Source: a virus. From it: a stretch of DNA of 55,830 nucleotides. Position numbers and translations under genes: made by a program. Of this stretch, positions 8,791 to 37,870 are shown one piece after another. The DNA is taken from the IMG/VR virus record IMGVR_UViG_3300049811_000327, positions 1 through 55,830 of that record, one strand, 5' to 3'. The notes beneath the pieces were generated by a model that saw nothing but the letters and a program-made list of their open reading frames with translations, made no database searches and was not told where the DNA came from. Position 1 is the stretch's first letter, and each line of letters starts with the position of its first letter.

Positions 8791-8826
8791 CGGAGTGTCT
8801 TTCTGCCTCAAAGAGGCACTTGTGTT

Positions 8827-9805: not shown

Positions 9806-11148
9806 CAGATTGCTCCCTGTTCGAAACGCATCAAGGCAGCAGACAGCCCGCTTGCGTCAGCCTGCTCCTCAGCCATGCGAACCTGCTCCACCTCCCAGTC
9901 TCGACCTCTCAAGCCAGCAGCGGTCTGACGAGAGAGGATGCCGAGGCCCATCTCCTTCTCAATGCCAGAGACCTCTTCCTCATCGTTCAGCGGCAAGGAG
10001 TCAGCCCATTCGATGTCCACGGTGACTGCATACCCAAGCATCTCCATACCAAGGGCGAAGACAGCCGTGATACCGTTCCTGTAGAGGTTGCGCTTGGTGT
10101 CCAACTTGTCAAGGGCATCCTTGAAGATCGTCCGCAGGAAGAAGTTGGACAGGTACTGGGGGCCGCTGGTAGTGAAGGCCAAGAGGTCTACACCACGACC
10201 TTCCGCAAAGAAGAGCTTCTGCAGCTGACCAAAGAAGTTGAGAGTGGCCGCAAGGTCCGACGTCATCTCCAAGTTGTACACCTTGGCGTCAGGGTTGGGG
10301 ATCGCCCAAAACCCGTTGACGGCCGTGGGTTGAACCTGAGAGGCCTCGACCCCGACACCGATCGTCTTGGGGTGTGCATGGACGTCAATGATGCGGAGCA
10401 CGTCAGAGGCCAAGAAGTTGACGTGAAGGTTGAGGTCTGCGTCGAGCAGATCAGGCTCGCCGTAGTAGGTATTGAGTGACGGAAGGTTCTTCCAGTCGAT
10501 GATGGGCGAGTAAGACGCAGTCCACTCGAGAAGGCTATCCTCAACCCAGTGAGGCTTGTTGGTCGGTTTGTGAAGATCACGAACGAACCACGCTTGGGCC
10601 GTCTCATCGAAGAAGATGTCTTGACGGTAGATGGTGCGCCCAGCCTCCCAAGCGATCATGTAGGCCACGGGCTTACTAACATCGTCAGCTCGCCAGAAGG
10701 CCGTCACCATCGATGTATCGAGCAGCACCCAACGCGGCACGCCGCCCTCCTTCTCAGGAGGCAGGACCTTGCAGAAACAGTGGCCGGAGATCGCACCCAT
10801 CAGGGCAACGCTGTGAAGGAAGATAGGCAGGTTGTTGGCTGTAGTGGTAGCCGTCCACGCCGCCAGAACCTCATCCGAAGGCTCGTCGCTGGGCCCATCA
10901 TAGAGCTCGATCGTCGGCTGGACACCCATGAAGAGCGACACGGCCTGGTTGATGATACGGCGAACGAGGTTGATCACAACGTTGTCATCACGCACTGATG
11001 GGTCCGACACCAACGGTTTGGGAAACTTGTTGGAGTAGTAATCGTTCATCGCTCGAATCGTAGCGCGACGCTCTGCTCGCTCAGGCCCTGCCAGGTCGTA
11101 GAGAATCTTCGGGTTTTCGCTAAGAGAGTAACTGTTGAGGGGCGGCAT
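9805..11148 (-). CDS. Portal protein (SPP1 gp6-like)
   Basis: 447 residues from the ATG at 11148, with GGAGG eight bases upstream; in-frame codons further up only shadow the terminase. The N-terminus YDLAGPERAERRATIRAMND, then YYSNKFPKPLV, the NLVRRIINQAVSLFMG segment and the central domain ending HPKTIGVGVEAS match the Phage_prot_Gp6 type portal. A long C-terminal helical stretch forms the crown and ends in acidic ADASGLSAALMRFEQ. Portals are dodecamers at one capsid vertex that bind terminase. The gene overlaps the large terminase by 29 bases. Confidence 0.88.
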   Translation of the reverse strand: MPPLNSYSLSENPKILYDLAGPERAERRATIRAMNDYYSNKFPKPLVSDPSVRDDNVVINLVRRIINQAVSLFMGVQPTIELYDGPSDEPSDEVLAAWTATTTANNLPIFLHSVALMGAISGHCFCKVLPPEKEGGVPRWVLLDTSMVTAFWRADDVSKPVAYMIAWEAGRTIYRQDIFFDETAQAWFVRDLHKPTNKPHWVEDSLLEWTASYSPIIDWKNLPSLNTYYGEPDLLDADLNLHVNFLASDVLRIIDVHAHPKTIGVGVEASQVQPTAVNGFWAIPNPDAKVYNLEMTSDLAATLNFFGQLQKLFFAEGRGVDLLAFTTSGPQYLSNFFLRTIFKDALDKLDTKRNLYRNGITAVFALGMEMLGYAVTVDIEWADSLPLNDEEEVSGIEKEMGLGILSRQTAAGLRGRDWEVEQVRMAEEQADASGLSAALMRFEQGAI

Positions 11149-12577
11149 TTGAGCCTCCGTAGAATGGGTTTGTTGTCTGTTGGATGGAGCGAGACGGCTC
11201 CTTGGCAACGATGAACGAAGAGATGGCCCAGACAAGGGCGTCCATACGGTTGGGTGACGGATCGCCTGGCGTCCAGAGACACATTTCGTCTTCCAACTGA
11301 TAGAACGAACCGACGTGATGGACCAGGCCCTTCTTGTAGAGGACCGAGACGGGCTGGGCTCTGGCCTGCTTCCCACGGCTAGCCCAGACAAGCTTGACTG
11401 GCACCTTTGGGTCGATCTGGGCGATCACTTGTGCGACCATCTCACCGCCATTGTTGGACTCGGCGACGATGTAGTCGGCCTCAAACGAGTAAAAGGCCTC
11501 GACCGCAGCCTGGCCCCAATCGGTCGGAGACCCCTGTATCGAGTCGTCGCGAAGGACGTAGATCTGACCTTCTGCACCAACACGACCAACGGCTACGACA
11601 CCTGCCTCATCACCTGCGGATGTCGCCGAGGGGTCAACCCCAATGACTACCTGAGAACAGGCCCTGAAGTCGAATGGGGTCGTGATCCGTCCCTCTTCTA
11701 GGGTCTGGCGAGACCAAAGGGCGCCTGGTACCTCAGTGACGTCCTCGGCCAAGATCTCCATCCTATAGGCCATCGGAGTCATGTCAGCAGCGATCTCGGA
11801 CAGGGCCGCAGTGTTGAGATACGGGTTGGAGTGTGACGAGAATGCGAAGACCGCCCACTTGCCAGTCGTGTCAGCCTGCGCCTTGGCGTAGAGGCGAGCT
11901 GCGTAACGAGGGTCGCCACCCGTGCTCTTCTTGGCCGAGGCCAGTGAGGGTGGGGTGTAGATAAAGACGGCTGTGCCACCAGTGTCCAACATCATGGGAG
12001 CGCCGACGCGGTCCCAAGTGTCTGGGTGCATCAACTGGAACTCGTCCAAGATGAGGACGTCGGCGAAGTCACCTCGCATCGTGTCGGCGTTCCAGGCCGT
12101 CTTCGCCTTGATCCGACCCAGGCCACCCTTGCCCCTGAGGGTGTGACTCGACAGGTTGGCCTTGACCACCTTTTGCTCGATCAGGGCCAGAAGGGCCTCG
12201 ACGACGGCGTCCCAGAAGGCACCAAGTTGGTCTGCAGTCGGGGTCGCGTAGAGGACCCGTCGGCCACTCATCATCGCCATGACGGCCATGATCGCGGCCC
12301 CTACAGTCTTGCCACCACGGCGACCAGCCCTGATCACCTTACGGGTAGCCCGTGACTCGATGAAGCGCAACTGTTCGGGGTGAGGGTTGGGCAGAAGCAC
12401 CTCGATCACGTTCTCTCGTCTCACCCTGTCCAGGGCACGGGGCGGTCCAACCCCACGGCCCTCTTTCTCGTGCCAACGTTGGATGACGTGGGCTGGGCGT
12501 GGGTCGCTTTGCCGCTCCACCGTTGACTCAAGAAGGGCAGCCTTGGCAGCCTTGACAGCAGGCGATGGCTTGATCAC
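11120..12577 (-). CDS. terL: Terminase large subunit
   Basis: 485 residues from the GTG at 12577, which overlaps the preceding stop as GTGA; the in-frame ATG at 12637 overlaps the upstream gene by 60 bases more. The ATPase domain has Walker A AGRRGGKT (84-91), Walker B VLILDEF (174-180) and a coupling Thr/Ser region (IYTPPS). The nuclease domain has GVDPSATSAGDEAG with Asp315, VAESNNGG with Glu373 and NRMDALVW with Asp446, the RNase H-fold metal triad. It cuts concatemers and pumps DNA into the prohead. Confidence 0.95.
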   Translation of the reverse strand: MIKPSPAVKAAKAALLESTVERQSDPRPAHVIQRWHEKEGRGVGPPRALDRVRRENVIEVLLPNPHPEQLRFIESRATRKVIRAGRRGGKTVGAAIMAVMAMMSGRRVLYATPTADQLGAFWDAVVEALLALIEQKVVKANLSSHTLRGKGGLGRIKAKTAWNADTMRGDFADVLILDEFQLMHPDTWDRVGAPMMLDTGGTAVFIYTPPSLASAKKSTGGDPRYAARLYAKAQADTTGKWAVFAFSSHSNPYLNTAALSEIAADMTPMAYRMEILAEDVTEVPGALWSRQTLEEGRITTPFDFRACSQVVIGVDPSATSAGDEAGVVAVGRVGAEGQIYVLRDDSIQGSPTDWGQAAVEAFYSFEADYIVAESNNGGEMVAQVIAQIDPKVPVKLVWASRGKQARAQPVSVLYKKGLVHHVGSFYQLEDEMCLWTPGDPSPNRMDALVWAISSFIVAKEPSRSIQQTTNPFYGGSNAAPQQLLS

Positions 12578-13194
12578 TCGGGCACCTCTTCCAGTGGGGC
12601 TGCGACCTGTAGGTAGTTGAGACCGTTGGAGCCCCAAACATCACGATATGGGGCCTCGGCAGGCTGCTCGAAGTAGACAGGTGGTCCGTCTTCGAACACC
12701 TCTTCTTCGTCCTCGACCCTCTCCCTGACGCCTAGCATCATCGTCCGTTCGACCGTTCCCTCGCCCTTGCCGCCCTTGAAGACTACCTCGACGCGAACGT
12801 TGCCCTTACCCTCATCGTCTTCGATCTCTGTTGGTGGCGGTGCTCCAAAGGCGGTGTCGAGGAAGCGAGCCTGGACCCTTGGGTCTCGGCTGTTGGCCCA
12901 GTCTCGAAGGATCTTCTCTGCCACGGACAGGTAGTGGTCATCGAGCCAAAGGGGCTCGGCCGTCGCTGGGTCCCTTGCCGGCTCTCTTGCGATCGAGTTG
13001 GCCAGGGCACGAAGGGCCTTGAAGGAGTTGCCGGGCTTGAGGACTGGTCCTGGGATCTTTGCTACCTCGGGCATCGTATCACCCCTTGACTTAGCCAGCC
13101 CCTTGGCTTCTCCAATGGGGACGATCAGAGAGCGAGGGTCAACCTTCGACCCCTTGGCCTTGTCTTGCGGCTCGACACTCGGGCCAGCAGTCAT
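12574..13194 (-). CDS. Probable terminase small subunit
   Basis: 206 residues in stop-start overlap with both neighbours. A basic, Pro-rich N-terminus is followed by a compact helical section at about residues 60-115 (NSFKALRALANSIARE, then HYLSVAEKILRDWANSRDPRVQARFLDTAFG), resembling the helix-turn-helix/oligomerisation region of small terminases; the C-terminal third is acidic. The sequence is not close to a named family, and the call depends on its position next to the large subunit. The conserved 'DPRVQARFLDTAFGAPP' type segment is common in this gene slot. Confidence 0.6.
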   Translation of the reverse strand: MTAGPSVEPQDKAKGSKVDPRSLIVPIGEAKGLAKSRGDTMPEVAKIPGPVLKPGNSFKALRALANSIAREPARDPATAEPLWLDDHYLSVAEKILRDWANSRDPRVQARFLDTAFGAPPPTEIEDDEGKGNVRVEVVFKGGKGEGTVERTMMLGVRERVEDEEEVFEDGPPVYFEQPAEAPYRDVWGSNGLNYLQVAAPLEEVPE

Positions 13195-14010: not shown

Positions 14011-15186
14011 ATGGCAACCTCGGTTCTCTCCACTCATGCAATTCGGCTCATCTTTTGTGAGACTCAGATCTATTTGATCTCTGGTGGTCACTGCTGGTCT
14101 CATCCCAATCACGACAAAACTCTCGCAAACACTGCACAGACTGCCATGTGCTCCTTGCGTACTACGTCTGATGGAGACATTTCGATCGCTTTCATTACTG
14201 GGACACGATCTCCGATCAGCGTTTCGGCCCTCAAGCCATCTTCCATTGAAATCGCAAAGGCACAGGCCCCTTGGGCATTCACAAGCCATGCAGACCTCAC
14301 GGAGGCACCTGCTACTCCCACCCCTACTCAGGCTGCAACAGCGGTGAGTGTTGAAATCGATGGTGATGAGGAAGTTCCGACGGCACCTTTACCCACCAAG
14401 GTGAAGTTAGCCAAGGACGCCTTCTACATCAACTCGGTCAACCTCAAGCTGCTGAAGGTCGCTGCCGGGATGGCGAGAGATGAGGGCAGTGCCAACGTCC
14501 TCTTGGTTGGCCCCTCTGGCTACGGAAAGACTTCGTTGGCAGCAGCGTTTGCTCGCATGGCTGGCATGGAGTATGTTCGGTTCAACTGCGCTGTCGTAAG
14601 GGACCCCGAAGAGTTCTTCGGCATTAGAGGAGCTGCCAACGGCACGACCACCTTCACTCACACGGAGTTCACCAGGGCGGTCATGGCAGGAAACACGGTC
14701 GTTTGCCTCGACGAGGTCAATCGCTTGGAGCCGTGGTTGTTGAACGCCCTCTTCCCCATGTTGGATGATGATCGCTCCACCACGATCCACGGCCACACCA
14801 TCACGGTCGCACCCAACACCATCTTCGTCATGACGATGAACCAGGGGTATCGCTACACTGGCACCTTCGTCATCGATGCGGCGTTCTCCAATCGAGCTCA
14901 CATGATTCTCAAGGTGGGACCGATGGATGCGAACGAGGAGACGACTGTCATCGTTCATCGGGCGAAGATCAGTAGGGATGTGGCGGCCATCATCGTCAAG
15001 GCAGCCAACTCACTGCGCAAGCAGGACCTCGATTGTGACGTCTCGACCCGCATGACTCTCAACGTTGCACGCTTCACACGCTACGGGCTGTCGGTGATGG
15101 AGGCCTTTGAGGCAGCCATCGGGAACAACGCAAGTGAAGTGGACCACAAGCGTCTGATCGACGCCGTGAAGATGGCTGTTGGATGA
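14011..15186 (+). CDS. MoxR/CobS-like AAA+ ATPase
   Basis: 391 residues; AAAGG lies 12 bases before the start. After about 130 residues of low similarity comes an AAA+ core: Walker A GPSGYGKTS (167-175), a strand after it, Walker B VVCLDEVNR (230-238) and sensor 1 VMTMNQ, with the lid at about residues 305-390. The ATPase fits the MoxR/CobS group, which remodel a partner protein together with a VWA-domain protein. That partner is the next gene. In phages the pair is often annotated CobS/CobT, but no cobalt-chelatase role is implied. The N-terminal extension (including CETQIYLISGGHC) has no recognised domain. Confidence 0.85.
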   Translation: MATSVLSTHAIRLIFCETQIYLISGGHCWSHPNHDKTLANTAQTAMCSLRTTSDGDISIAFITGTRSPISVSALKPSSIEIAKAQAPWAFTSHADLTEAPATPTPTQAATAVSVEIDGDEEVPTAPLPTKVKLAKDAFYINSVNLKLLKVAAGMARDEGSANVLLVGPSGYGKTSLAAAFARMAGMEYVRFNCAVVRDPEEFFGIRGAANGTTTFTHTEFTRAVMAGNTVVCLDEVNRLEPWLLNALFPMLDDDRSTTIHGHTITVAPNTIFVMTMNQGYRYTGTFVIDAAFSNRAHMILKVGPMDANEETTVIVHRAKISRDVAAIIVKAANSLRKQDLDCDVSTRMTLNVARFTRYGLSVMEAFEAAIGNNASEVDHKRLIDAVKMAVG

Positions 15187-15190
15187 CGGT

Positions 15191-15272
15191 GTGAAGGGGC
15201 CAAGGCGGTGGGGGGCCGAGAGAGTTCGGTCGACACTAGCAGGGGGGAGGCCCTCACCGCCTTGGTCCTTTC
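15191..15272 (+). terminator. Long GC-rich stem-loop after the MoxR-like gene
   Basis: CCAAGGCGGTG (15200-15210) pairs perfectly with CACCGCCTTGG (15255-15265), and the stem extends on both sides. No U-run follows, so partial termination or RNA processing is more likely than a full terminator. Early promoter 2 begins just after it. Confidence 0.5.
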
Positions 15273-15279
15273 ACTCAAC

Positions 15280-15344
15280 GAACTTTGGAAATTTAACCTT
15301 TCTGATATGTACATTTCGACAAAAGCGTGATATGATAGTCTCGT
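15280..15344 (+). promoter_or_regulatory. Early promoter 2
   Basis: Diverged copy of the block: GAACTTTGGAAATTTAACC box, -35 TGTACA, 17 bases, -10 TATGAT (15331-15336), followed by a CTCGTAAGC leader. Drives the VWA gene and probably the operon to 28.4 kb. Confidence 0.8.
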
Positions 15345-15378
15345 AAGCCAAACTCACTCGAACGAAAGGACCTGAACG

Positions 15379-17286
15379 ATGACTTCCCCTCTCTCTCCCA
15401 TCATCTTCGCAACAGGAACAACGACAACCTTCAAGTGTCCGTTGGTCGATCCTTCGCGGCTGGATGTTGGGTTTGTCGCCAAGTGGTACGAGACATTGGG
15501 TGACATCAGCTTTGTTGAGGCAGTTGCAGGTTCAACATCACTGATTCGCGGCATCTGCAACAAAGAGGCAACGATCGAGTTCTTCCGCCCTGAAAGAGAC
15601 AGTGGCGCAGCTGGAGCGGCGGACTTCACATCGACCCCTCCTCGCATCTTCATCTCCAAGATTTTCGTCTCTTCTTCCTTGGAACTTTGGCCCATTGAGA
15701 CGCGAAAGCTTGCTAGCATCGGTGCATGCAATGGTACGATCACACATGAAGCGCTACACATTCTGCACACGTTTCCTCACATGACGGCGGTTCGCACACT
15801 AAGACAGAACGAGATGTCGGCCTTCCAAATCATCGAAGACCTCTTCATCGAAACTGAGTGCAAAGTCAACTTCCCAGCACTCTTACCGTTCATCTCTCTC
15901 AAAAACGCCTTCCTCTTCTCAGCCGCAATTGAGAGTATGTGGGAAACAAAGCGATTTGGGATGACGACGGCCTCAGCTGTTGAGTTGATCGCAAAAGTGA
16001 TCCCGATGATCAAGTACTTCCGCAGCAGTGGCTTCGTCGAGTTTGTCCTCCACGTCGTCGGAGAGTCAGTTGAGAATCGGGCAATAGCTGAGAAAGTGCA
16101 AGACATCGCGAATCGGGCGATGGTTGCGGGTCTTCCCATCAACGTACGTATTGCTCTCGCTATCGAGCTGGCAGGTCTCCTTTACGCATTCACAGGCGGG
16201 ACAGGGATTGCACAGGAGAACGTCTACACGTTGAGTAAAACTATCTCATCTACCTGCAAGCTGGACAAAGCCTTTATGAAGAAGGCCATTGGCGGCAGCG
16301 GTGAAGAGGATGATGAAAAGGATGAAGGTGACGACGAGGACAGCGACGACGAGGACAGCGACGACGAGGACGCAAGACGAACGGAGCTGAGCGAGATTGA
16401 TGCGGCTCGTAAAGCTCTCAAGGAGCTCTCGATGGAGTTGAGAATGGCATCCTTTGGATCGGCGAGCGGTATTCTCAACAACATTCCAGTCTTTGTCATT
16501 AAGACACCGATGGCTCATAAGGAGCTCGAGGCGAGTGTTGAAACGACGAACCTTTCGAAGCATCTTCGTCAAATTCAAACCCCTCGCACAACCGTTGGTG
16601 AACCGCGAACCAGTGGTCGCATTGCAAACACTCGCCTGTGGAGAATCGCCACTGATGGCAAGATCTTTGCTGAGCGAATGCACATCGATCGATCTGCAAG
16701 ATCTTACGAGTTTGCGATCGCGGTCGACGCAAGCAGTTCAATGGGACCGACATTCTTCAAGCAGGTCTTAACGACAGCAGCCGGCATCAAGATGGACATA
16801 AACGAAGGAGGTTTTCCCGCTCAGCTGCTAGCCTTCTCTGCAGACACGCACTTGACGGAAGACGAAATCAACTGCGCAATCTACCTCATTGGAGATCGAG
16901 GGCGCATGCAGATGACGGAAATGAGGCGTTACCTTTACGAAGCGATTCAGATCAACCTCGCAGAGAATCGTGACAATCTCATGATCACTTGGGCATCGAA
17001 GAATTGCTTCACTGATCGTCACGACACTGTCAAGGTCCTCTTGGTCTTGAGTGATGGGAGTCCTTCGGCAAAGATGTTCAGACGAGAAACGGCTGAAAAG
17101 GCAACGCTGAAGGCGATTGAAGACGCACGCAGTCAAGGAATCATCGTCATCGGCGTTAGCATCAAGAATGGTGTGGTTAAGAGCAACGACGAGATGTATG
17201 GCTCTAAATTCCACGTTGACGCATCTACCCCTGGAACGATTGGCGAACAGATCGCCAAGACAATCAACAGTATCTTCGAGAGCTAG
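15379..17286 (+). CDS. VWA-domain protein with HExxH motif, MoxR partner
   Basis: 635 residues; AACGAAAGG precedes the start. Residues 123-127 form HEALH, an HExxH zinc-metallopeptidase-type motif, within a region like the DUF2201 N-terminal domain found with MoxR ATPases. Residues about 312-335 are an acidic run made by a short tandem DNA repeat (GACAGCGACGACGAG units). The C-terminal VWA domain has the metal-ion-dependent adhesion site DASSS (Asp450, Ser452, Ser454) and a later LVLSDGSPS Asp. It follows the AAA+ gene, which it likely works with, the ATPase remodelling a target bound by the VWA/peptidase-like protein. Function in the phage is unknown. Confidence 0.85.
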   Translation: MTSPLSPIIFATGTTTTFKCPLVDPSRLDVGFVAKWYETLGDISFVEAVAGSTSLIRGICNKEATIEFFRPERDSGAAGAADFTSTPPRIFISKIFVSSSLELWPIETRKLASIGACNGTITHEALHILHTFPHMTAVRTLRQNEMSAFQIIEDLFIETECKVNFPALLPFISLKNAFLFSAAIESMWETKRFGMTTASAVELIAKVIPMIKYFRSSGFVEFVLHVVGESVENRAIAEKVQDIANRAMVAGLPINVRIALAIELAGLLYAFTGGTGIAQENVYTLSKTISSTCKLDKAFMKKAIGGSGEEDDEKDEGDDEDSDDEDSDDEDARRTELSEIDAARKALKELSMELRMASFGSASGILNNIPVFVIKTPMAHKELEASVETTNLSKHLRQIQTPRTTVGEPRTSGRIANTRLWRIATDGKIFAERMHIDRSARSYEFAIAVDASSSMGPTFFKQVLTTAAGIKMDINEGGFPAQLLAFSADTHLTEDEINCAIYLIGDRGRMQMTEMRRYLYEAIQINLAENRDNLMITWASKNCFTDRHDTVKVLLVLSDGSPSAKMFRRETAEKATLKAIEDARSQGIIVIGVSIKNGVVKSNDEMYGSKFHVDASTPGTIGEQIAKTINSIFES

Positions 17287-18072: not shown

Positions 18073-18945
18073 ATGATATACATCATCGATGGCAGGAAAG
18101 GCTCTGGGAAGACCACGACAGTCAGAGCCTTGGCCAAACATTTCGAGTCGCAAGGCTTGGCCGTTCTTGAAGTCAAGCCGAGCCCACCCTCACCCGCTGA
18201 GAGCCTGGCGCAGAGCTGGATGCGTGTGTTGCGCAGCACCGAAGGCGTCGACGTGGCGATCATCGATCGTGGTCTTGGCACCGAGTGGATTTACGGCCGC
18301 CAACGTCACTTCGATCCCGAGTACTTCTACGAGATTCAGAAGCTGGACATCGAGGCGAAGCAGAACTTCTCCATCATCGAGGTGACCCTCGTCTGCGAAG
18401 ACCCCTTCAGTCGCGGGCGTGAGCCGTGGGAAGGGATGGACCTGGACACGACCGCCGAGTGGTTGACTTGGGGCTCTGTTCACTCATCGATCATCATCAA
18501 CACCGACCAGGACCCCACCGAGAAGGTCATCGAAAAGATCACTGCGATCGAGATACCCGACGACCTTTCGGGAGCCCCCAATCTCTATGACGTTATCCCC
18601 CTTGGTTATGAGGACATCTCCCTCTTCGAGCTCTTCATGCGACAGCGCAAGCTGATGACGCTCCTGGACCTGCAACCTGGCCACACAGGCATTATGTCAG
18701 CCACTCTTGGCCTGGCCTCAGAGGCAGGTGAAGTCGCCGACCTGGTGAATGACTTCAAGGCGCCATGGGCAGGGAAGTTGGCGGACAACCGTGAACACAT
18801 GCTCGAAGAGTTGGTGGACGTGATCTTCTACGTTGTTGAGCTCTTCATCATGATGGGTGGCACCAGTACAGATCTCTCAGACACCTACATGGCCAAGTGG
18901 TCGCGCAACATCAGGCGTGCCATGGAGCGACGTGATGACGCATAG
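18073..18945 (+). CDS. Nucleotide kinase - MazG-type pyrophosphohydrolase fusion
   Basis: 290 residues with two domains. Residues 1-150 are a P-loop kinase: IIDGRKGSGKTT (Walker A 7-15), then a thymidylate-kinase-like DRGLGTEWIYGRQRHF. Residues 190-285 carry the MazG all-alpha NTP-pyrophosphatase metal motifs ASEAGEVAD (Glu217, Glu220) and EELVDVIFY (Glu246, Asp249). The kinase would phosphorylate dNMP and the MazG domain would split dNTP to dNMP. In T4 the separate gp1 and gp56 do these jobs for hydroxymethyl-dCMP and dCTP. With the dCMP-hydroxymethylase-like gene in the same operon, I infer the fusion makes hydroxymethyl-dCTP while removing dCTP. Confidence 0.8.
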   Translation: MIYIIDGRKGSGKTTTVRALAKHFESQGLAVLEVKPSPPSPAESLAQSWMRVLRSTEGVDVAIIDRGLGTEWIYGRQRHFDPEYFYEIQKLDIEAKQNFSIIEVTLVCEDPFSRGREPWEGMDLDTTAEWLTWGSVHSSIIINTDQDPTEKVIEKITAIEIPDDLSGAPNLYDVIPLGYEDISLFELFMRQRKLMTLLDLQPGHTGIMSATLGLASEAGEVADLVNDFKAPWAGKLADNREHMLEELVDVIFYVVELFIMMGGTSTDLSDTYMAKWSRNIRRAMERRDDA

Positions 18946-19567
18946 CCTCATGGGTCCATGCTTCAGATGCACGATGTGTGGCACCCCTGCCCAACTGCCT
19001 CCGCAGCTTGTCATCGAGCCCAACCCAATCGCTCCAGTTTTGGTCGTCGGACCGTCGCTCTTCGCAAAGGCACCTTCGTCAACGGACATGGACTCATATG
19101 CCTGGTGGCATGAGTACGCTTGGTGGCATGAGAAGCTGAATCGTCCCACCGAAGGTCTGAACGACTTGATCAGCTTTTGGGCTCAGATGGATTTTTTCGC
19201 GTCTCAAACACGCAAGGACATGATGAACTACTTTGGGCCCAACTTCATGTCCCCAACTGATAGGATCTTCGCCTACACCTTCACGAGCCGTTGTCGAGCC
19301 ATACCTGAGAGTGACCAGGCGAAGATGACAGAGGCGTGCTCCATCTACACTCGCTCACTGCTCAATGACGGAAGAAAGGCCGTCATCACTGTTGGCCAAG
19401 CCGCCAAAGATCAAGTCTCTGCTATCATCGGAGGCGCCATCAGTTCCACTCCAACTTCCATCGGCGGCTTTAACACCATCGCCCTCCCTGCCTTCAACCC
19501 CGAGAAGAAGAAGCAGCACGCTCTCGTGATGGCAGGAGTCGAAGACTTTATTAAGAGGACGCTATGA
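18935..19567 (+). CDS. Family 4-like uracil-DNA glycosylase superfamily protein, divergent
   Basis: 210 residues from the ATG at 18935, which overlaps the kinase stop by 11 bases (Met at 18950 also possible). Four Cys are placed as the 4Fe-4S ligands of family 4 glycosylases: CFRC near the N-terminus, then SRC and TEAC 15 apart (SRCRAIPESDQAKMTEACSIY). The strand AVITVGQAAKDQV matches the end of the family. The usual motif 1 (GEAPG type) is replaced by VLVVGPSLFAKAP, so uracil excision is uncertain. A short internal repeat encodes YAWWHE twice. It may act on a modified base or be a structural derivative (inference). Confidence 0.62.
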   Translation: MTHSLMGPCFRCTMCGTPAQLPPQLVIEPNPIAPVLVVGPSLFAKAPSSTDMDSYAWWHEYAWWHEKLNRPTEGLNDLISFWAQMDFFASQTRKDMMNYFGPNFMSPTDRIFAYTFTSRCRAIPESDQAKMTEACSIYTRSLLNDGRKAVITVGQAAKDQVSAIIGGAISSTPTSIGGFNTIALPAFNPEKKKQHALVMAGVEDFIKRTL

Positions 19568-20805
19568 AGTATCTCATTCTTGGTGGCGGTATCACCGGAT
19601 GGACAGCCGCCAAAAACATCTTGGTGTCGGACCCCGCAGCGCTTGTCACGATGATCACTGCTGATTCTGGCCTGCTTGAGCCATTTGGCAACGGGTATGA
19701 ACAAGGCGGACACGTTTACTCACCTGGATCGCAGATGGTGATGGCCAAACTTGGCGTCACTTTTGACGGCCCGATGCTCCAACGACGAGCTTTCTACCAC
19801 GATGGCCAAAGAAGGTGGGAATACCCAGTCCAGTACTCCATGCTGGATCGTCCTGTTAAGCCTGTCACCTACGTCGGCCAGTCACTCGAGGCCTACGGCA
19901 CCGAAGCTTTTGGTGAGCACTTCTACAACAGTTGGTTCCGACCATTCAACGAACGGGTATGGGGAATCGATCCTTGCCTGATGGACTCCGACTGGCTTCT
20001 CAATCGTGCCCCAACAACGACTGTCGGAAACGCTTCGTGGGGACCAAACTCGACCTTCAGGTGGGCTCTGGGGTCATCCATCATGAAACAGATGTATGTC
20101 CAATCATCTCGACTGTCCGTGATCACCCAGGTCTTCTCTGGCCTCCGGAGGGCACATAAGGGCCTAACGGTGACGTGTCAACAGGGCTTCCAGCAGTCGG
20201 GCTTCGAAGCCGTCATCTCCACGATCCCGATCAATACGCTTCTGAATGCCATGGAGATTGACGAGTTCCCAACTCTTCCGTACAACAAAGTGACCACCTA
20301 CGGCGTCACGACGAGTGTTCCGTACGACCAACAGTGGACATGGTGTTATGGGCCCATCGGGCAGAGCGTTCATCGCGTCACCAATCTCGCCCTTTACGAG
20401 GGCAAGGAACAGGAGTACGGGAAGTTCCTCTTCGAAGTGCCTACACCCACACGTCACTTCGCAACCACCCCTTACCCGTCGCAGGGCGGATCGCGTCTTT
20501 CACCAGACGTGTATCGCATGTTGGAGATGCTCGATGTTTCCGCAACTGACATCGTTCACTCGACCTCGATGACGCACCTAGGCTACCCCGCCCCAGTCCT
20601 TGGCCTTGCTGAAACGCGTAGAGAGATTAAGTTGCGGGTGTTGCCACTCAACATCTTCCTTGCTGGCCGATGGGGAAGTCATGCCTACCTCAATGTCGAT
20701 GGCGCGATGATGGATGGGTTCCGTGCCTCTCAAGCAGCCATTCACAGAGGCAAGGATACAGCCGCCAACGACAACTACCTTGCTACCGAGATTACACCAC
20801 TATGA
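19564..20805 (+). CDS. FAD-dependent UDP-galactopyranose-mutase-like enzyme
   Basis: 413 residues, overlapping the previous stop by ATGA. The N-terminal FAD/NAD-binding Rossmann fold (LILGGGITGWTAAKNIL, Gly7-x-Gly9-x-x-Gly12) and a C-terminal segment (about residues 363-385, NIFLAGRWGSHAYLNVDGAM) match the flavin-binding ends of UDP-galactopyranose mutases and protoporphyrinogen-oxidase-like enzymes. A mutase would turn UDP-pyranose into UDP-furanose. The next gene is a glycosyltransferase and the one after a hydroxymethylase, so supply of a furanose donor for DNA glycosylation is an attractive inference. An amine oxidase-type reaction is the alternative. Confidence 0.72.
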   Translation: MKYLILGGGITGWTAAKNILVSDPAALVTMITADSGLLEPFGNGYEQGGHVYSPGSQMVMAKLGVTFDGPMLQRRAFYHDGQRRWEYPVQYSMLDRPVKPVTYVGQSLEAYGTEAFGEHFYNSWFRPFNERVWGIDPCLMDSDWLLNRAPTTTVGNASWGPNSTFRWALGSSIMKQMYVQSSRLSVITQVFSGLRRAHKGLTVTCQQGFQQSGFEAVISTIPINTLLNAMEIDEFPTLPYNKVTTYGVTTSVPYDQQWTWCYGPIGQSVHRVTNLALYEGKEQEYGKFLFEVPTPTRHFATTPYPSQGGSRLSPDVYRMLEMLDVSATDIVHSTSMTHLGYPAPVLGLAETRREIKLRVLPLNIFLAGRWGSHAYLNVDGAMMDGFRASQAAIHRGKDTAANDNYLATEITPL

Positions 20806-21860
20806 AAACCAAGACCGTTCGTGTTCTTCCCAAGATCGGCCCGTCGCATCGGCTTAACGTCGCTTGGAACACCTGGGAGCCTGGTCTCAATGGGAACGGT
20901 TCCACTTCCGGCGGCGGAGCAATCTGGACTCGCTACTTGTGGAAGCATCTTGACAAGCACCACAACATCGGCGTCATCAACGTCTCTGGGCGCTCCAACC
21001 TTATCGGGACCGCCTTCGATGCGGCGGTCTTCTGTTGGCGATGGAACTTCCCTCGTGGCATCGGCTACGACGAGAGGGCCGACGCCTACGACAAGCAGAT
21101 GCGTCTCCTGGATGAATGCTACGAGGCCAAGATTCCGATCATCGTCCACGACCAGGACCACAAGATCGGAGCAGATATCGCCTACCTCAAGTCGATCGGG
21201 GCCCACATTTACGAGCCGAGCCTGGCGCCGCGGGAAGGGGTCAGGTCACTCTTCTTCCCCTACCCCTTTGGTCGCCCAATCACCCCCAAAATGAGCGACT
21301 ACAGGACACGACTCCACTCGATGGCCTACATCGGGAACAACTATGAGAGGTACGCACAGTTCGTCAGATACTTCGGCGGAACTAGGTGGAAGACGCCTCC
21401 CACATCCTTCTACTCTGGCGACTTTGTTCAGTGGGGGCCGAGCGTTTGGGGAAACTGGCTGGAGTCGTCTCCTCTCCGCGAGATACCTGAAAAAGTCTTG
21501 CGCGACAACCCTAATGTTCACTTTCTTGGACGCCTCGACCAATCGATGGTTCAAGAAATGATGGTGGCTTCATTCGCCACGATTCACTTCGCCAAGCCGT
21601 CCTACAACGACGTTGGGTTCGTTACGATCAGGTGGGCCGAGGCTGTCGCCGCTGGCTGCATCGGAGCCATCCCAAGTGAGTTCAATACCCTCGGACAAAT
21701 GAAGGAGCTTGTCGTTTCTCCCGACAGTATCGAGGCTTGGACCGATCGTGTTGTTCGCGACTATGAGTTCAGAATGCAGCTGATGGACATACAAGCTGAC
21801 TTTGTTCTCGGGACAATGACTGTGGCTCCCTGGGCAAGCATTCTTCGAGGTGCGAAATGA
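20802..21860 (+). CDS. GT-B fold glycosyltransferase
   Basis: 352 residues from the ATG at 20802, in ATGA overlap with the flavoenzyme. The C-terminal half has a GT-B pattern: NVHFLGRLDQSMVQEMMVASFATIHF, then RWAEAVAAGCIGAIPSEF and a terminal helix WTDRVVRDYEFRMQL. It lacks the canonical E-x7-E signature of strict GT4 enzymes. Lying between a sugar-nucleotide enzyme and a dCMP-hydroxymethylase-like gene, it is the best candidate for transferring sugar to hydroxymethylated bases in phage DNA (inference). It is unlike the three late-operon transferases. Confidence 0.75.
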   Translation: MKTKTVRVLPKIGPSHRLNVAWNTWEPGLNGNGSTSGGGAIWTRYLWKHLDKHHNIGVINVSGRSNLIGTAFDAAVFCWRWNFPRGIGYDERADAYDKQMRLLDECYEAKIPIIVHDQDHKIGADIAYLKSIGAHIYEPSLAPREGVRSLFFPYPFGRPITPKMSDYRTRLHSMAYIGNNYERYAQFVRYFGGTRWKTPPTSFYSGDFVQWGPSVWGNWLESSPLREIPEKVLRDNPNVHFLGRLDQSMVQEMMVASFATIHFAKPSYNDVGFVTIRWAEAVAAGCIGAIPSEFNTLGQMKELVVSPDSIEAWTDRVVRDYEFRMQLMDIQADFVLGTMTVAPWASILRGAK

Positions 21861-22795
21861 ACATCACAATCAACGGGATGAGTGACTTCCGCGAGATCCT
21901 GAGTTTCGTGAAAGCTGGTGTCGAGGTCAGCCCGCGCGGCATCACGACAGTCGATCAGTCACCTCTCTTCATCACAATTCTGAACCCTCGCAATCGCTTG
22001 GTCCCGATCATCGCTCGTAAGGCCAACTACGCTTTCGCCTTCACTGAGTGGCTCATGATCATGACCGGCGATGACTCAGTCGAGCGCTTGGCCGCCTACT
22101 CCAAGGAGATCAGGAAGTTTTCTTCTGATGGGGTAACGATCACCGGAGCGTACGGACCCCGTGTCTTTCCTCAACTCAGCCATGTCGAGGAAAAGCTCCG
22201 CAGCGATCGCAACACGCGACAGGCTGTGATCTCAATCCTCAAGGCTGGCGACACTCTCAACGCTGATCCGCCTTGCACCATTTCTGTCCAGCTTCGCATC
22301 AACGGCGGCAAACTGGACGTGATCACCACGATGCGCTCCAACGACATCATGTGGGGATTCACCTACGATGTCTTCTACTGGACGATGCTTCAAGAGTGGT
22401 TCGCTCGCCGCCTGGGCTTGGCAGTCGGGACCTACTATCACAATGTTGGGTCGATGCATCTCTACACCAAGCGTGACGGAGCAATGGTGGCAGCCATCGA
22501 AAGTGAACCATACGAAGCAACCTGCCCAATGCGGCAAATGGATCAATTTGCTGCCGATGGGCTACTCCAAAAGTTGAGCACCATTGAGACCAACCTTCGC
22601 ACTCTTGGGCCCATCGCCGCTTGGGACGACATCAACGCACTGCCGCCATACTGGCGTGACTGGGGGCTGGTTCTCTTCCTTTGGCATGCTCGTAAGAAGC
22701 GTGAGTTGGTCCCTTGGTGCAGCGACGTCGCGCGCCGACTCTTCTTCGACGCAACCCTTCGTGACAACTATCTCCTCAACTGGATTCCCAAATGA
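21857..22795 (+). CDS. dCMP hydroxymethylase-like (thymidylate synthase superfamily)
   Basis: 312 residues, ATGA overlap with the transferase. Thymidylate-synthase catalytic features are present: Glu64 in the helix TEWLMIMTG, YGPR at 99-102, the nucleophile Cys140 in PPCTISVQLRI, Arg160-Ser in RSND, and HLY (His201, Tyr203). The position that is Asn177 in E. coli ThyA (the residue choosing dUMP) aligns to Asp171 in GFTYDVFYW. T4 dCMP hydroxymethylase has Asp there too, and the Asn-to-Asp change in thymidylate synthase shifts preference to dCMP. I therefore predict 5-hydroxymethyl-dCMP formation using methylene-tetrahydrofolate. A dUMP enzyme cannot be fully excluded. Confidence 0.82.
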   Translation: MNITINGMSDFREILSFVKAGVEVSPRGITTVDQSPLFITILNPRNRLVPIIARKANYAFAFTEWLMIMTGDDSVERLAAYSKEIRKFSSDGVTITGAYGPRVFPQLSHVEEKLRSDRNTRQAVISILKAGDTLNADPPCTISVQLRINGGKLDVITTMRSNDIMWGFTYDVFYWTMLQEWFARRLGLAVGTYYHNVGSMHLYTKRDGAMVAAIESEPYEATCPMRQMDQFAADGLLQKLSTIETNLRTLGPIAAWDDINALPPYWRDWGLVLFLWHARKKRELVPWCSDVARRLFFDATLRDNYLLNWIPK

Positions 22796-25623
22796 GCACC
22801 TTCGTTCACCTTCACGTTCACTCTGACGCCAGTGACGGCATCGGCACCCCAGAACGGATCGTGGAACGCGCTAAGGCCCTTGGTCAGCCAGCCGTTGCGT
22901 TGACTGACCATGGGACCTTGGCTAACATGGTCGCGTTCCACTCCGCTGCCAAGCGGCATGGCATCAAGCCCCTTCTTGGCCAAGAGATCTATCTCCTCGA
23001 CTACGAGGGGACCACTCCCAAGTCGCGTCACATGACCGTTTTGGCTCAGAACCTCGAAGGGTTGCACAACCTCTATGCGCTCACCACGCTAGCGAGTCGA
23101 TCGCCCTTTAAGCTTCCGACCGTCACCCTTAACGACCTCTTTTCTCACAACGCGGGCCTCATCGTTCTTTCAGGGTGTACAGCCTCACCAATCTATCACC
23201 GCGAGGGGAGTGCCCTTCAGTCCTATGTTGGGTCATTCGTCGATGTCTTCAAGGAGCGCTTCATCCTTGAGGTTACACTAGTCCCTCCTTTCGACACCAT
23301 GACTCGCATCCAAGGTCTCCACAAGAGGTTCGGATCGCTGGTGGTTCCAACATGTGATGCGCACTATATCTTGGCTGATGAGAAGGCCACACAGGCTGTA
23401 GCGAACATGGCCCGCAGGGGATTCTCTTACGAGAACGCCGAGCTGTGGATGAAGCCGGAGACGATGATTCACAAGCTCATTGAGCGAATGGGAGAACCTG
23501 GCGAGGGCCTCATTCACAACACTAGCGTTGTAGCCGGAATGATCGACGAGTTTTCCATCTCCTCACCAACTGTTGGGCTTGTTTACCCGAATGCGGCCTT
23601 CGAACTGACCACAATCGTTAAGAACAAGTTGCGAGAGGGCATTGGCTTGTTCTCTCCCGACGAGATGCGAGTCAGAATCGCAAGGGCGAAGAGTGAGCTC
23701 GAGGTCATCATCTCAAAGGGGTACGCCGACTACTTCATGATCGTTTATGACATTGTGAACTGGGCCAAACGCAACGGAATCTCAGTCGGGCCAGGTCGTG
23801 GTTCGGCCGCCGGGTCATTCGTTCTCTTTCTCCTTGGGGTCACACACCTTGATCCACTTGCTTGGGGATTGAGCTTCGAGCGGTTCCTTAACCCTAAGCG
23901 CCCAGACATGCCGGATGTTGATATCGACTTTGGGATGGTTGGTCGCCAAGAGGTTCTGGAGTACATCAGTGAGCGATGGGGAGGAGTCCAGATTGCTACC
24001 TACAGTCGTTACTCCCATAAGATGCTGGTCCACGATTTGGCCAAACAGCTTGGCATTTCCCGTGAGGATGAAATACGAGCTGCCGACGATCCCGGGTCAC
24101 CAGAGTTTCTGGAAGCGATGGCTACTTCGGCTTTCGCTGCATCGTACACCACCTTGATGGGCACCATTCGTCATCGAGGGAAACATGCAAGTGGGATAGT
24201 CATCTCCGATTCACCAATGCCATTGGAGCGAATGGGAGAGAGCCTTGGGGTTCCATGGACCGAAGGTGACTCGAAGGAGCTGTCTGCAATGGGGTTGGTC
24301 AAGTTTGACATCCTCGGCCTCACTGCTCTCACAGCAATCAAGCGCATGGAGGACTTCTCTGGGAGAACGGCCCCAGCCGACTTCGTAGCCGATCCGCGCG
24401 TTCTCAAACTCTTCCAGGATGGTGACCTGTTGGGAATCTTCCAGTTCACTGGGAGTCCTGGCATCGTTGACCTGACCAAGAAGATTCATCCAACGACTCC
24501 GGAAGACCTGATCGCAATCAACGCGCTCTGGCGACCTGGCGCACTCGATGTTGGGTCCACCCGCCTGTATGCGTCGTGGAAGGCGAGCCCGCGTAAGCTT
24601 CATCCACAGATCGACCCCCTGTTGGCCAACACGTACGGGGCCATTGTCTACCAGGAACAGGTGATGGCTGTCTTTGCAGAGGTTTCTGGTGGTGACGTTG
24701 CAGATGCGGACCTGGCTCGCCGCGTCATCGTCAAGTCGAAGGTTGGCGATCCAGATTGGGAGAAGAAAGTCCTCATAATTCATGAGACCTTCATGACCAA
24801 TGGAGCCGCTCGCGGGTTCGATCATGCCCTTTTGGACAAGCTTTGGCACGAGTTGATTGCTCACGCCAGGTATTCGTTCAACAGAGCACATGCTGCATCC
24901 TACGCCTTCATCGCCTATCAAATGGCGTTCTTCAAGGTGTACGAACCGCTCGCGTTTTATGCAGCAATGTTGGAGTTCGACAACGACAACACGGCAGCCT
25001 ATCTCTACGAGGCGTTGGGTAAGGGGATCACAATCTCACCGCCACACATCAACCTTTCGACAGACAGTTACTCACTCGACAAGACGGCATCCAAAATCAC
25101 CATGCCATTGTCGGCCATCGACGGCCTGGGGCCTTCTGGAGTGACCCGGATCATTCAAACCCGCGAAGATAATGGCCCATTCACATCATTCACGGATTTC
25201 ATCACCAGGGTCCCTGCACGATCGTGTAACGCCAAGGCAAGAAAGAACCTGATGCTGGCCGGAGCGTTCTCTGGGGTTGATGGTGACCCATCGACCATCG
25301 GCTTCGACCTAGGCAGCGAGCTCGCCCCTGGTTCACGAGAGGCTCAAAAAGCTGCCATGAAGTTCGTTGCCCCACTCCCTCGGCTCGTTCGAAAAGTGAG
25401 GGCAATTCGTGAGTTTATTCAGGCCTCTGGTGACAAGTTCAAGGTCGCTGGGGTGGTCGTCGACATTCGCAAGAAGAAGCGCGAAGACGGTGAAATTTGG
25501 TTCGTAGACCTTTACCCGGACGGCTTCTTTTGGGTCAAGACGAAGCCAAGATTGATCAAGGGAGACGTCATCGTAGCCACTCTCAGGGGCAGACGCGCCG
25601 TAAAGATCGAGGCCATTGAATGA
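22792..25623 (+). CDS. dnaE: DNA polymerase III alpha subunit (C-family replicative polymerase)
   Basis: 943 residues, shorter than bacterial DnaE (about 1160). The N-terminal PHP domain has FVHLHVHS (His6, His8, His10) and TDHGTLANM. The polymerase core has GPGRGSAAGSF and PDVDIDFGM (catalytic Asp375, Asp377), HRGKHASGIVIS, YQEQVMAVF and FNRAHAASYAFIAYQ. A C-terminal helix-hairpin-helix (IDGLGPSG) is followed by a short tail; the OB and tau-binding ends of bacterial DnaE look reduced. It is the phage's own replicative polymerase, overlapping its neighbours by ATGA and followed by helicase and primase. Confidence 0.95.
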   Translation: MSTFVHLHVHSDASDGIGTPERIVERAKALGQPAVALTDHGTLANMVAFHSAAKRHGIKPLLGQEIYLLDYEGTTPKSRHMTVLAQNLEGLHNLYALTTLASRSPFKLPTVTLNDLFSHNAGLIVLSGCTASPIYHREGSALQSYVGSFVDVFKERFILEVTLVPPFDTMTRIQGLHKRFGSLVVPTCDAHYILADEKATQAVANMARRGFSYENAELWMKPETMIHKLIERMGEPGEGLIHNTSVVAGMIDEFSISSPTVGLVYPNAAFELTTIVKNKLREGIGLFSPDEMRVRIARAKSELEVIISKGYADYFMIVYDIVNWAKRNGISVGPGRGSAAGSFVLFLLGVTHLDPLAWGLSFERFLNPKRPDMPDVDIDFGMVGRQEVLEYISERWGGVQIATYSRYSHKMLVHDLAKQLGISREDEIRAADDPGSPEFLEAMATSAFAASYTTLMGTIRHRGKHASGIVISDSPMPLERMGESLGVPWTEGDSKELSAMGLVKFDILGLTALTAIKRMEDFSGRTAPADFVADPRVLKLFQDGDLLGIFQFTGSPGIVDLTKKIHPTTPEDLIAINALWRPGALDVGSTRLYASWKASPRKLHPQIDPLLANTYGAIVYQEQVMAVFAEVSGGDVADADLARRVIVKSKVGDPDWEKKVLIIHETFMTNGAARGFDHALLDKLWHELIAHARYSFNRAHAASYAFIAYQMAFFKVYEPLAFYAAMLEFDNDNTAAYLYEALGKGITISPPHINLSTDSYSLDKTASKITMPLSAIDGLGPSGVTRIIQTREDNGPFTSFTDFITRVPARSCNAKARKNLMLAGAFSGVDGDPSTIGFDLGSELAPGSREAQKAAMKFVAPLPRLVRKVRAIREFIQASGDKFKVAGVVVDIRKKKREDGEIWFVDLYPDGFFWVKTKPRLIKGDVIVATLRGRRAVKIEAIE

Positions 25624-26762
25624 ACGCCCTCATCACTCGTTGCTTAACGACTACTGACATCGCCCCCATCAGCCAGTTCCCTACCATCTTGCTCTCTGAC
25701 CAAGAGAATGCGATGGTGAAGTGGATTCTGACGTTTCAAATGCGCTATGGCGGGCCGCCCTCGATAGAGCGCTTCATGGCCGAATTCATTGAGTTCGTGC
25801 CTATCAAGAGTCGTGCTCCATTGCCTGACTTGGTTGAGGAGTGCATGACTCGAAAGAAGCAGCTGGCCTCGACAATGGCAGCCTCCGAGCTACTTGCTGG
25901 TGAGGCTGACCCAGCAACCGTCGCTCAGCTCCTCTTGGCCAAACTCAACTGTCAGATGTCGGACGTTATCCGCTTTTCCACGTTTGACCGAGCCTCCTAT
26001 TTTACCAGTGGGGAACCGTTTTGGTTCATGAGCAATCGCATCAACGATGTCGTCGGTGGCATCTTGCGGGGCGAACTTGCCTACATCGTTGGTCGTCTTG
26101 GAACTGGTAAAACGCTGCTAACCCAATGGATGATCTATCAGTGGTGGAAGGCTGGGAAGCGTGTTCTTCTCACATCAGCAGAGATGACACCAAATCAGCT
26201 CATGTTGCGTCTTGACGGCTTCATCGCAGGCATCAACCCAGCTGACGTTCGACGCCGCAAGATCACTGGTCCCGAGCCATTTGCAATGGTGTCGCATCTC
26301 GCTTCGATTGCTGGTGGGGATATTATCATCCCAACCAGGACACCTCGAACTCCGAGTGAGATTGGATCGCTCATCATCTCCCACAAGCCTGACATCGTTG
26401 CCGTAGACGGTGTTTATCTCCTCGATTCTGATGAGAGATTGGCCTCGAGTTGGGAGCGAATGGCCTCCATCAGTCGAGGGTTGAAGGGCCTTACACTAGC
26501 CCACAACGTTCCACTCGTAGGTACCAGTCAAGCGAACAGGAGTGCTCGTGACAAGGTCACGGGATATGACATCGCCTACTCGGACGCTTTTGGCCAGGAC
26601 GCTGATCTCATCGCAGCTCTGACGACGACCGGGCGACGGACCAGACTCGAAGTGATCAAGAACAGGAGCGCTGCTGGAGTCGTCACTGACGTAACCGTTG
26701 ACTTCGAAACCATGCGAATCGTGGAAGAAGACGAGGAGGTAATTGACCTTGAAGCACTATGA
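25620..26762 (+). CDS. DnaB-type replicative helicase
   Basis: 380 residues. The C-terminal RecA-like ATPase domain has Walker A GRLGTGKT (158-165), then SAEMTPNQLMLRLDG, and Walker B DIVAVDGVYLL near residue 260. Arg-rich segments follow. The N-terminus (about 120 residues) is helical, like the DnaB N-domain that binds primase. It unwinds the fork 5'-3' in a hexamer. It overlaps the polymerase gene (ATGA) and the primase gene by 20 bases. Confidence 0.9.
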   Translation: MNALITRCLTTTDIAPISQFPTILLSDQENAMVKWILTFQMRYGGPPSIERFMAEFIEFVPIKSRAPLPDLVEECMTRKKQLASTMAASELLAGEADPATVAQLLLAKLNCQMSDVIRFSTFDRASYFTSGEPFWFMSNRINDVVGGILRGELAYIVGRLGTGKTLLTQWMIYQWWKAGKRVLLTSAEMTPNQLMLRLDGFIAGINPADVRRRKITGPEPFAMVSHLASIAGGDIIIPTRTPRTPSEIGSLIISHKPDIVAVDGVYLLDSDERLASSWERMASISRGLKGLTLAHNVPLVGTSQANRSARDKVTGYDIAYSDAFGQDADLIAALTTTGRRTRLEVIKNRSAAGVVTDVTVDFETMRIVEEDEEVIDLEAL

Positions 26763-27564
26763 TCCGAACGACTTTGGGTTCACCGTTGGGCGCAGAATGG
26801 GTGACGAGGCCATGGTCATCTGCCCATTCCATGATGACACCAAACCGAGCGCGGTTTTCAACGTTTCTACAGGCCTCTTCTTCTGCTACGCCTGTCGCAC
26901 TGGCCTGAATGTCAATCAGCTGGCCAAGCGATTGAAGGTGAGTGGGATCGCCAAGCGGGAAGTTACCCACACGGGGAGGCTCGATGCTGACGAGGACCTC
27001 TGGGAGAGACGCTGGAATGCTGCTGCTCAGGTCGATGATAGTTCGTACATCCTCAGCAGGGGGGTGTCCCTGAACCTCTCCAGGCAGTTGATGATCCGTG
27101 AAGATCGAGAGGGGATCCTCTTCCCGCAGTCACCTGACGGGGTTCAGATTGTAGGTATTCAAGTGAGGTCGACGACCGGTCGCGGGCCTCGCTACAAGTT
27201 TCACGGCAAGCGCCTTCCTCTTTGGCCATTCTGGCTTTGGGCAGAGGTCGAAGCGCCGATCCTGACTGAAGGTAACTTTGGTACGTTGAGGCTTCGCAAT
27301 CAAGGCCTGCCAGCTTTCGCAACTCAAAGTGCCAACGTGCCAAAGAAGAGCCTGTCGGCTATCGCAGCCAAGGAGAGTGGGACGATCTTCTTCGACGCTG
27401 ACGAGGCTGGCCAACGAGCGGCTGTTAACTTGGCCGTTCAGACTGGGCTAAGGGTCTGTTGGCCTGGTGGAGCGACCGACGAGATGACTCCAGATGCCAT
27501 TGCATTTGCGCTGATGCGCTCGATGAGTGTACCACAGCTTCTCAAGGTGGTGTACGAATTATGA
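26743..27564 (+). CDS. DnaG-type primase
   Basis: 273 residues from a TTG start at 26743, supported by GAGGAGGT six bases upstream. The zinc finger CPFH...C...C (Cys27, His30, Cys48, Cys51; FFCYACRTG) is CHC2-type. A TOPRIM domain has TEGNFGTL with Glu176 and FFDADEAG with Asp218 and Asp220. There is no long helicase-binding C-terminus, so the two proteins probably contact each other by other means. It synthesises RNA primers for the polymerase. Confidence 0.88.
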   Translation: MTLKHYDPNDFGFTVGRRMGDEAMVICPFHDDTKPSAVFNVSTGLFFCYACRTGLNVNQLAKRLKVSGIAKREVTHTGRLDADEDLWERRWNAAAQVDDSSYILSRGVSLNLSRQLMIREDREGILFPQSPDGVQIVGIQVRSTTGRGPRYKFHGKRLPLWPFWLWAEVEAPILTEGNFGTLRLRNQGLPAFATQSANVPKKSLSAIAAKESGTIFFDADEAGQRAAVNLAVQTGLRVCWPGGATDEMTPDAIAFALMRSMSVPQLLKVVYEL

Positions 27565-37438: not shown

Positions 37439-37870
37439 ATGGCCGAGCGCCCATCTTGGGACGACTACTTCATGGGCATTACCTTTGCGGTCAGCAGGCG
37501 CAGCACGTGCGATCGTGCAAGAGTGGGGGCAATCATCGTCAAGGACCAAAGCATCCTCACGACAGGTTACAACGGCTCACCGAGCGGGCTGCCACATTGT
37601 GATGATGTTGGTCACCTAATGGTGGACGGTCACTGCGTGCGTACACTACACGCGGAGCAGAACGCGATCATCCAAGCTGCGCAGCACGGCGTCAGTATAC
37701 GCGGTGCGACAATCTATGTCACTCACCAACCGTGCTTGACATGCGCCAGAATGATCATCAATGCGGGCCTCGTGCGTGTCGTATACGCCGGCGACTACAT
37801 CGACGCGTACTCTGTCGAGTTCCTCGCTCAAGCTGGCGTGGCACTGCAGAAGATGACAGTTCCACAATAA
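37439..37870 (+). CDS. Deoxycytidylate (dCMP) deaminase
   Basis: 143 residues with GGAGG nine bases upstream. The zinc site is HAEQN (His, Glu) and PCLTCA (two Cys), the ComEB/dCMP-deaminase pattern; an upstream DRARVGAIIVKDQSILTTGYNG segment gives the nucleotide loop. It converts dCMP to dUMP for thymidylate synthesis. In T4 this enzyme (cd) balances dCTP for hydroxymethylation, which fits the modification cluster here. No thymidylate synthase proper was found, so host ThyA may use the dUMP. Confidence 0.88.
   Translation: MAERPSWDDYFMGITFAVSRRSTCDRARVGAIIVKDQSILTTGYNGSPSGLPHCDDVGHLMVDGHCVRTLHAEQNAIIQAAQHGVSIRGATIYVTHQPCLTCARMIINAGLVRVVYAGDYIDAYSVEFLAQAGVALQKMTVPQ

Follow-up and report, generated by a model that had tools for sequence, protein, structure and literature searches.

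The window, by which we mean the whole 55,830-base virus record analysed here, carries three adjoining genes for a UDP-galactopyranose mutase (UGM)-like flavoenzyme, a glycosyltransferase (GT) related to T4 DNA beta-glucosyltransferase (beta-GT) and a thymidylate synthase (TS)-fold enzyme predicted to be a dCMP 5-hydroxymethylase (HMase), and we suggest that their products may decorate the viral DNA with galactofuranosyl-5-hydroxymethylcytosine. The TS-fold enzyme is very probably a folate-dependent dCMP hydroxymethylase, a well supported call from its residues and, as such, an ordinary case of an already known enzyme kind. Glycosylation of the 5-hydroxymethylcytosine (hmC) in DNA is probable, while the full chain, galactofuranosyl group on hmC included, has in our judgement a somewhat better than even chance of being correct. 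The argument is built on the triad of UGM, GT and HMase, on its coupling and on its repetition in other viruses, the UGM alone being insufficient.

Genome context and operon layout

The window has no direct terminal repeat of at least 15 bases, and its right end cuts through a glycosyltransferase frame; the record is therefore probably a fragment of a larger genome. Its terminase, portal, head and 1956-aa tape measure genes mark the virus, on sequence grounds, as a tailed phage or an archaeal virus. Its polymerase most resembles enzymes of gut phages and actinobacteriophages, whereas the nearest match to its terminase comes from Methanosarcina virus MetMV (Table 1).

The preliminary description of this DNA had placed the HMase in one operon with the replicative polymerase, helicase and primase, and that part stands: all three identities were recovered with PHROGs, and 4-nt ATGA overlaps join GT to HMase (at 21857), HMase to DnaE (at 22792) and DnaE to DnaB (at 25620). 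What it had missed are the sugar genes, UGM and GT, directly upstream of the HMase, where a chain of overlapping genes runs from a kinase-MazG fusion through a uracil-DNA-glycosylase (UDG)-like gene, UGM and GT to the HMase. The GT has an ATGA overlap at each end, and the UGM, joined to it in this way, is by the sequence of the junction translationally coupled to it.

Several further features accompany the cassette. The kinase-like and MazG-like domains, fused in the window, are separate genes in three related viruses (L003-L005), which suggests one pathway. The UDG-like family recurs in other cassettes, its L004 member matching Pfam UDG (9e-9) and the family profile matching PDB 4zbx (1.7e-5), and the placement of a base-excision-like UDG relative inside a modification cassette is puzzling. 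Upstream of the cassette lies a MoxR-like AAA ATPase and vWA (CobT-like) protein pair, and genes resembling this pair also precede the cassette in L003 and L005. A radical-SAM-like protein, recognised by eye from a CxxxCxxC-type motif, is found between DnaE and DnaB in L004, L005 and L098, not in the window.

Table 1. Coordinates of the features discussed, in the window and in other viral sequences.
Feature	Sequence	Position	Strand	Remarks
Glycosyltransferase, GT2	window	8092-8835		polyprenyl-phosphate sugar synthase-like
Large terminase	window	11120-12637		51% identical over 366 aa to MetMV terminase
MoxR-like/vWA pair	window	14011-17286		upstream of cassette
P-loop (deoxynucleotide) kinase-like domain fused to MazG/dUTPase_2-like pyrophosphatase	window	18073..18945	+
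UDG-superfamily-like protein	window	18935..19567	+	conserved CxxCxxC
UGM-like flavoenzyme	window	19564..20805	+	413 aa
GT related to T4 beta-GT	window	20802..21860	+	352 aa; from profile and fold of L005 homologue
TS-fold enzyme, predicted HMase	window	21857..22795	+	312 aa; ATG to TGA
Cys140 codon of HMase	window	22274..22276	+	catalytic
Asp171 codon of HMase	window	22367..22369	+	Asn177 column
DNA polymerase III alpha-type polymerase (DnaE)	window	22792..25623	+
DnaB-like replicative helicase	window	25620..26762	+
DNA primase	window	26743..27564	+
dCMP deaminase	window	37439..37870	+	far from operon; nucleotide supply
Glycosyltransferase	window	55395-55830		open at right end of record
UDG-like protein	L003	5630-6250
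UDG-like protein	L004	5067-5687
UDG-like protein	L005	5589-6212
UDG-like protein	L109	4981-5589
Radical-SAM-like protein	L004	13361-14464
Radical-SAM-like protein	L005	13191-14237
Radical-SAM-like protein	L098	5305-6408
HMase (Asp177), deaminase-like gene, possible GT, Pfam TAGT (TET-associated glycosyltransferase), GLF-type UGM	L114	5839-11147		one run
RB69-like 5-hydroxy-dCMP-synthase homologue, prokaryotic GLF-type UGM, possible glycosyltransferase	L125	5899-9497
TS-fold gene, T4 beta-GT homologue, GLF UGM	Lactobacillus phage ATCCB, MK504445.1	34336-37391 (L136 7031-10086)		genes 0045-0047, consecutive

Diagnostic residues of the TS-fold enzyme

The HMase reading frame was confirmed at its full length, with matches to PF00303 (3.6e-18) and phrog_5131 (2.5e-51), and its best PDB match is the CMP hydroxymethylase MilA (5.9e-31). 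Residues were mapped by aligning the protein in MAFFT to E. coli ThyA (a sequence matching the database record at 100%), T4 gp42, SPO1 gp29, MilA and others. Cys140, named earlier as catalytic, aligns with ThyA Cys146, and Asp171, proposed as the base-selecting residue, falls in the ThyA Asn177 column. Thr141 sits at ThyA position 147, and positions 177 and 147 are the two at which, according to MetaGPA, TS-fold proteins from modified contigs are best told apart from those of unmodified ones (PMC8670742). Asp137, three residues before the Cys, occupies the place of T4 Asp145, which the T4 structure paper describes as the water activator and a signature of hydroxymethylation, gp42 D145N being inactive (PMC6400193). 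Ser161 and Arg121 stand at the positions of MilA Ala176 and Lys133, on which the ribose preference of MilA depends (PMC5175136), and point to deoxyribose. Asp163, Gly167 and Tyr203 are retained at the positions (Asp169, Gly173, Tyr209) that are changed in RB69 ORF048c, a homologue reported to produce 5-hydroxy-dCMP (PMC13390438); the use of these changes as a marker of 5-hydroxy-dCMP synthases is our own. A C-terminal tail of the ThyA type is absent from the window enzyme in the alignment. One T4 feature, Ser94-x-Tyr96, is unmatched, the window having Gly97-Ala-Tyr99 and thus no Ser or Thr two residues before the conserved Tyr. This feature is not universal, because MilA, a proven hydroxymethylase, likewise has Ala just before the Tyr and no Ser at the T4 Ser94 position. 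The earlier prediction of a dCMP-type hydroxymethylase is thus supported by residues beyond Asp171.

Three other identities were considered for the window enzyme and rejected on its residues: TS or dUMP hydroxymethylase, CMP hydroxymethylase (at the two MilA positions) and 5-hydroxy-dCMP synthase of the RB69 type (at the three retained positions).

Asp at position 177 is shared with the HMases of all five cassette relatives (L002-L005 and L098), which also retain Thr147; where T4 has Asp145, however, they carry Asn, and since D145N inactivates the T4 enzyme, their chemistry is less sure than that of the window protein. The TS tree gives the window HMase no firmly supported neighbours and requires several changes of residue 177, so that this residue seems to switch repeatedly.

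The sugar genes and their recurrence

The window UGM matches T. cruzi UGM (TcUGM) at 5e-11 as a single sequence and at 2.4e-40 over its full length as a four-member profile, whose 25 top-scoring PDB matches are UGMs without exception; it has no Pfam GLF match. Its N-terminus carries GGGITG, in agreement with the FAD-binding GxGxxG motif. All nine residues that PMC4192007 treats as the active site of TcUGM (numbering in the PDB chain differs by three) are retained and invariant, H62, R176, N201, Y317, R327, Y395, R423, Y429 and N433 corresponding to window H50, R148, N162, Y262, R271, Y341, R369, Y375 and N377. We predict that the gene encodes a UGM, which would convert UDP-Galp to UDP-Galf.

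Against 177,635 PDB sequences, searched to E = 10, the GT profile hit only T4 beta-GT (2e-7), a similarity limited to the C-terminal half, for which alone hhalign of the GTs with T4 beta-GT also gave a confident alignment; Pfam T4-Gluco-transf matched neither the window GT nor its relatives. A model of the L005 homologue (pLDDT 88.6, pTM 0.87) had T4 beta-GT structures (1qkj, 1nzd and 1c3j) as its top three fold matches, at TM 0.60-0.65 and 4.4e-11 for the best (TM 0.65), with SenB (3.6e-9) and other GT-B proteins close behind, a modest margin. Modelled by itself, the window GT gave a poor structure (pLDDT 54), the fold search of which was set aside, and a GT scan of bacterial and archaeal genomes found no relatives. 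From the profile and the homologue model, the GT appears to be a remote relative of T4 beta-GT and looks able to act on the donor and acceptor proposed below.

The cassette relatives L002-L005 were found by a polymerase scan of viral contigs; single-protein scans of these contigs with the window HMase (P0001), P0004 and P0005 returned no relatives, and neither P0004 nor P0005 had a match in the phage collection. L003, L004 and L005 share the gene order MazG-like, UDG-like, UGM, kinase-like, GT, HMase, DnaE, so that UGM-GT-HMase-polymerase succession is present in all three related viruses with an intact region, and the UGM is kept in four of four such regions once the window is counted. The L002 and L098 contigs open inside the GT at their edge and continue GT-HMase-DnaE, and L004 and L098 have one additional gene before DnaE. 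At the loci recovered with the polymerase, members of the UGM and GT families were found only alongside these HMases. A wider HMase scan added two further GT-HMase neighbours, L106, whose contig begins too close to judge UGM presence, and L109, with no UGM found nearby, as well as two unrelated UGM clusters, L114 and L125.

Searching the phage collection with the UGM of L125 led to Lactobacillus phage ATCCB, whose TS-fold gene has Asp177, Asp143, Thr147 and Asp169 and whose beta-GT is a genuine homologue of the T4 enzyme (1.8e-47; Pfam 9e-22). UGM has probably been recruited more than once, since the TS tree places the TS-fold genes of ATCCB and of L125 in separate firmly supported groups and the UGMs of both, like that of L114, are of the prokaryotic GLF type, another class than the window UGM. 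We give an even chance to the broader reading that several unrelated phage lineages independently recruited two UGM classes for galactofuranosyl-cytosine DNA, a furanose-hexose decoration unreported before. GLF-type relatives of UGM are encoded at no fewer than 537 viral sites, and among the best 80 of these a TS-fold gene lies within the 8-kb flanks only on L125's own contig, for which reason UGM alone is not diagnostic. UGM-bearing phages of Aeromonas, Rhizobium, Sinorhizobium and Ochrobactrum have no annotated TS-fold gene beside the UGM and were left out as support, and in Agrobacterium phage Atu_ph04 genes for both a dCMP hydroxymethylase and a UGM are present, at widely separated places (PMC6630229).

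Proposed pathway, alternatives and known systems

From the sequence identities, residues, fold, operon structure and recurrence described above, we infer the following activities, together with the donor sugar, its acceptor and the biological role. The MazG-like domain would deplete dCTP and the kinase domain phosphorylate modified dCMP, which the TS-fold enzyme, with strong residue support, is predicted to make from dCMP and methylene-tetrahydrofolate as 5-hydroxymethyl-dCMP; the co-operonic DnaE-type polymerase would then incorporate the modified nucleotide. The UGM, in keeping with its active-site residues, may turn host UDP-galactopyranose into UDP-galactofuranose, and the beta-GT-like transferase, as its fold and operon position suggest, could place the furanosyl group on hmC in DNA. 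Virion DNA would thus contain 5-(galactofuranosyloxymethyl)cytosine and be shielded from host nucleases. The preliminary description had predicted hmC "or a derivative", an apt hedge, as the adjacent GT and UGM argue for a glycosylated final base, probably bearing a furanose. Counting against galactofuranosyl-hmC are the Asn at the Asp145 position in the relatives, the unmatched Ser94, L109, the frequency of UGM in viruses at sites with no TS-fold neighbour, the modest fold margin, the poor model of the window GT and the unsupported placement of the window HMase in the TS tree.

Some of these points favour other explanations. The hmC could carry an ordinary host sugar, such as glucose from UDP-glucose as in T4, with the UGM serving another purpose or a second decoration; T4 beta-GT, the closest known relative of the GT, does use UDP-glucose, and L109 has the GT and the HMase together, no UGM having been found in their vicinity. 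We nevertheless consider this unlikely, given the coupling of UGM to GT, its retention in all four intact cassettes and its position directly after a true T4 beta-GT in ATCCB. A little less likely is that UGM and GT act on a surface glycan of the host or on a protein of the virion, the HMase alone giving plain hmC DNA. UGM normally supplies cell-surface polysaccharides, and the scarcity of TS-fold neighbours at the best GLF-type sites fits such a role, yet it is a DNA glucosyltransferase that the GT most resembles, both genes sit within the replication operon, and in unrelated phages UGM has members of DNA-GT families (T4 beta-GT, TAGT) as companions.

The least likely of the alternatives is that the mutase makes a different furanose donor, such as UDP-arabinofuranose, the base then being arabinofuranosyl-hmC. 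Some UGMs accept UDP-arabinose. Arabinose is also known on phage cytosines (PMC6024577, PMC13390438); against this, a UDP-arabinose synthesis gene was not recognised among the window genes scanned, and UDP-galactose is a common host metabolite. Hardly more probable is a TS-fold enzyme yielding 5-methyl-dCMP or 5-hydroxy-dCMP, with any sugar placed on 5-hydroxycytosine as in RB69. In its favour, TS N177D mutants methylate dCMP, as cited in PMC8670742, and L125 pairs a UGM with a homologue of the RB69 enzyme, itself reported to make 5-hydroxy-dCMP (PMC13390438); the hydroxymethylation signature Asp137 (PMC6400193), the absent ThyA-like tail and the residues kept in the window but changed in RB69 all speak against it.

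If the galactofuranosyl-hmC reading is true, galactofuranose would join glucose, gentiobiose, arabinose and the Thanatos pentose as sugars of phage cytosines, and DNA of this kind would probably be protected from many nucleases and might also withstand sugar-specific type IV defences. In the open PMC literature, outside which most subscription papers and preprints lie, we found no link of galactofuranose or UGM to DNA modification, and the ATCCB descriptions in the open literature examined do not mention the TS-fold, beta-GT and UGM enzymes or the DNA chemistry. The combination of UGM, DNA glycosyltransferase and Asp177 TS-fold enzyme could serve as a genomic signature for finding such DNA, and the enzymes might be developed to label 5hmC with a sugar absent from mammalian synthesis. 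As ATCCB is a cultured phage (on Lactobacillus brevis ATCC 367), the idea is directly testable.

Among known systems, T4 with gp42 and beta-GT (glucosyl-hmC DNA) offers the same TS fold, Asp177, Asp three before the Cys and a beta-GT-like transferase, with both modification genes near the replicative DNA polymerase; the window differs in its DnaE-type polymerase (family B in T4), its added UGM, its only remotely similar GT and the MilA-like C-terminal domain of its HMase. MilA (PDB 5b6d) is the best solved relative, of similar length and likewise with a C-terminal extension and Asp at 177, but with Ala176/Lys133 for ribose in place of Ser161/Arg121 (PMC5175136). The UGM resembles the eukaryotic type of T. 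cruzi and Aspergillus in its full-length profile match and complete active site, whereas it is viral, shorter, located in a DNA-replication operon and outside Pfam GLF. The arabinosyl-cytosine pathway of RB69/Mosigvirus similarly sets a TS-fold enzyme together with phage-borne genes for a sugar and for its transferase close to the DNA polymerase, but its enzyme, which has lost Asp169, Gly173 and Tyr209, is reported to make 5-hydroxy-dCMP (PMC13390438), and its sugar genes, in the stretch examined, include no UGM. ATCCB is an unrelated phage with a prokaryotic GLF-class UGM and a GT closer to T4 beta-GT; like the window, it brings together an Asp177 TS-fold enzyme, a beta-GT-type transferase and a UGM.
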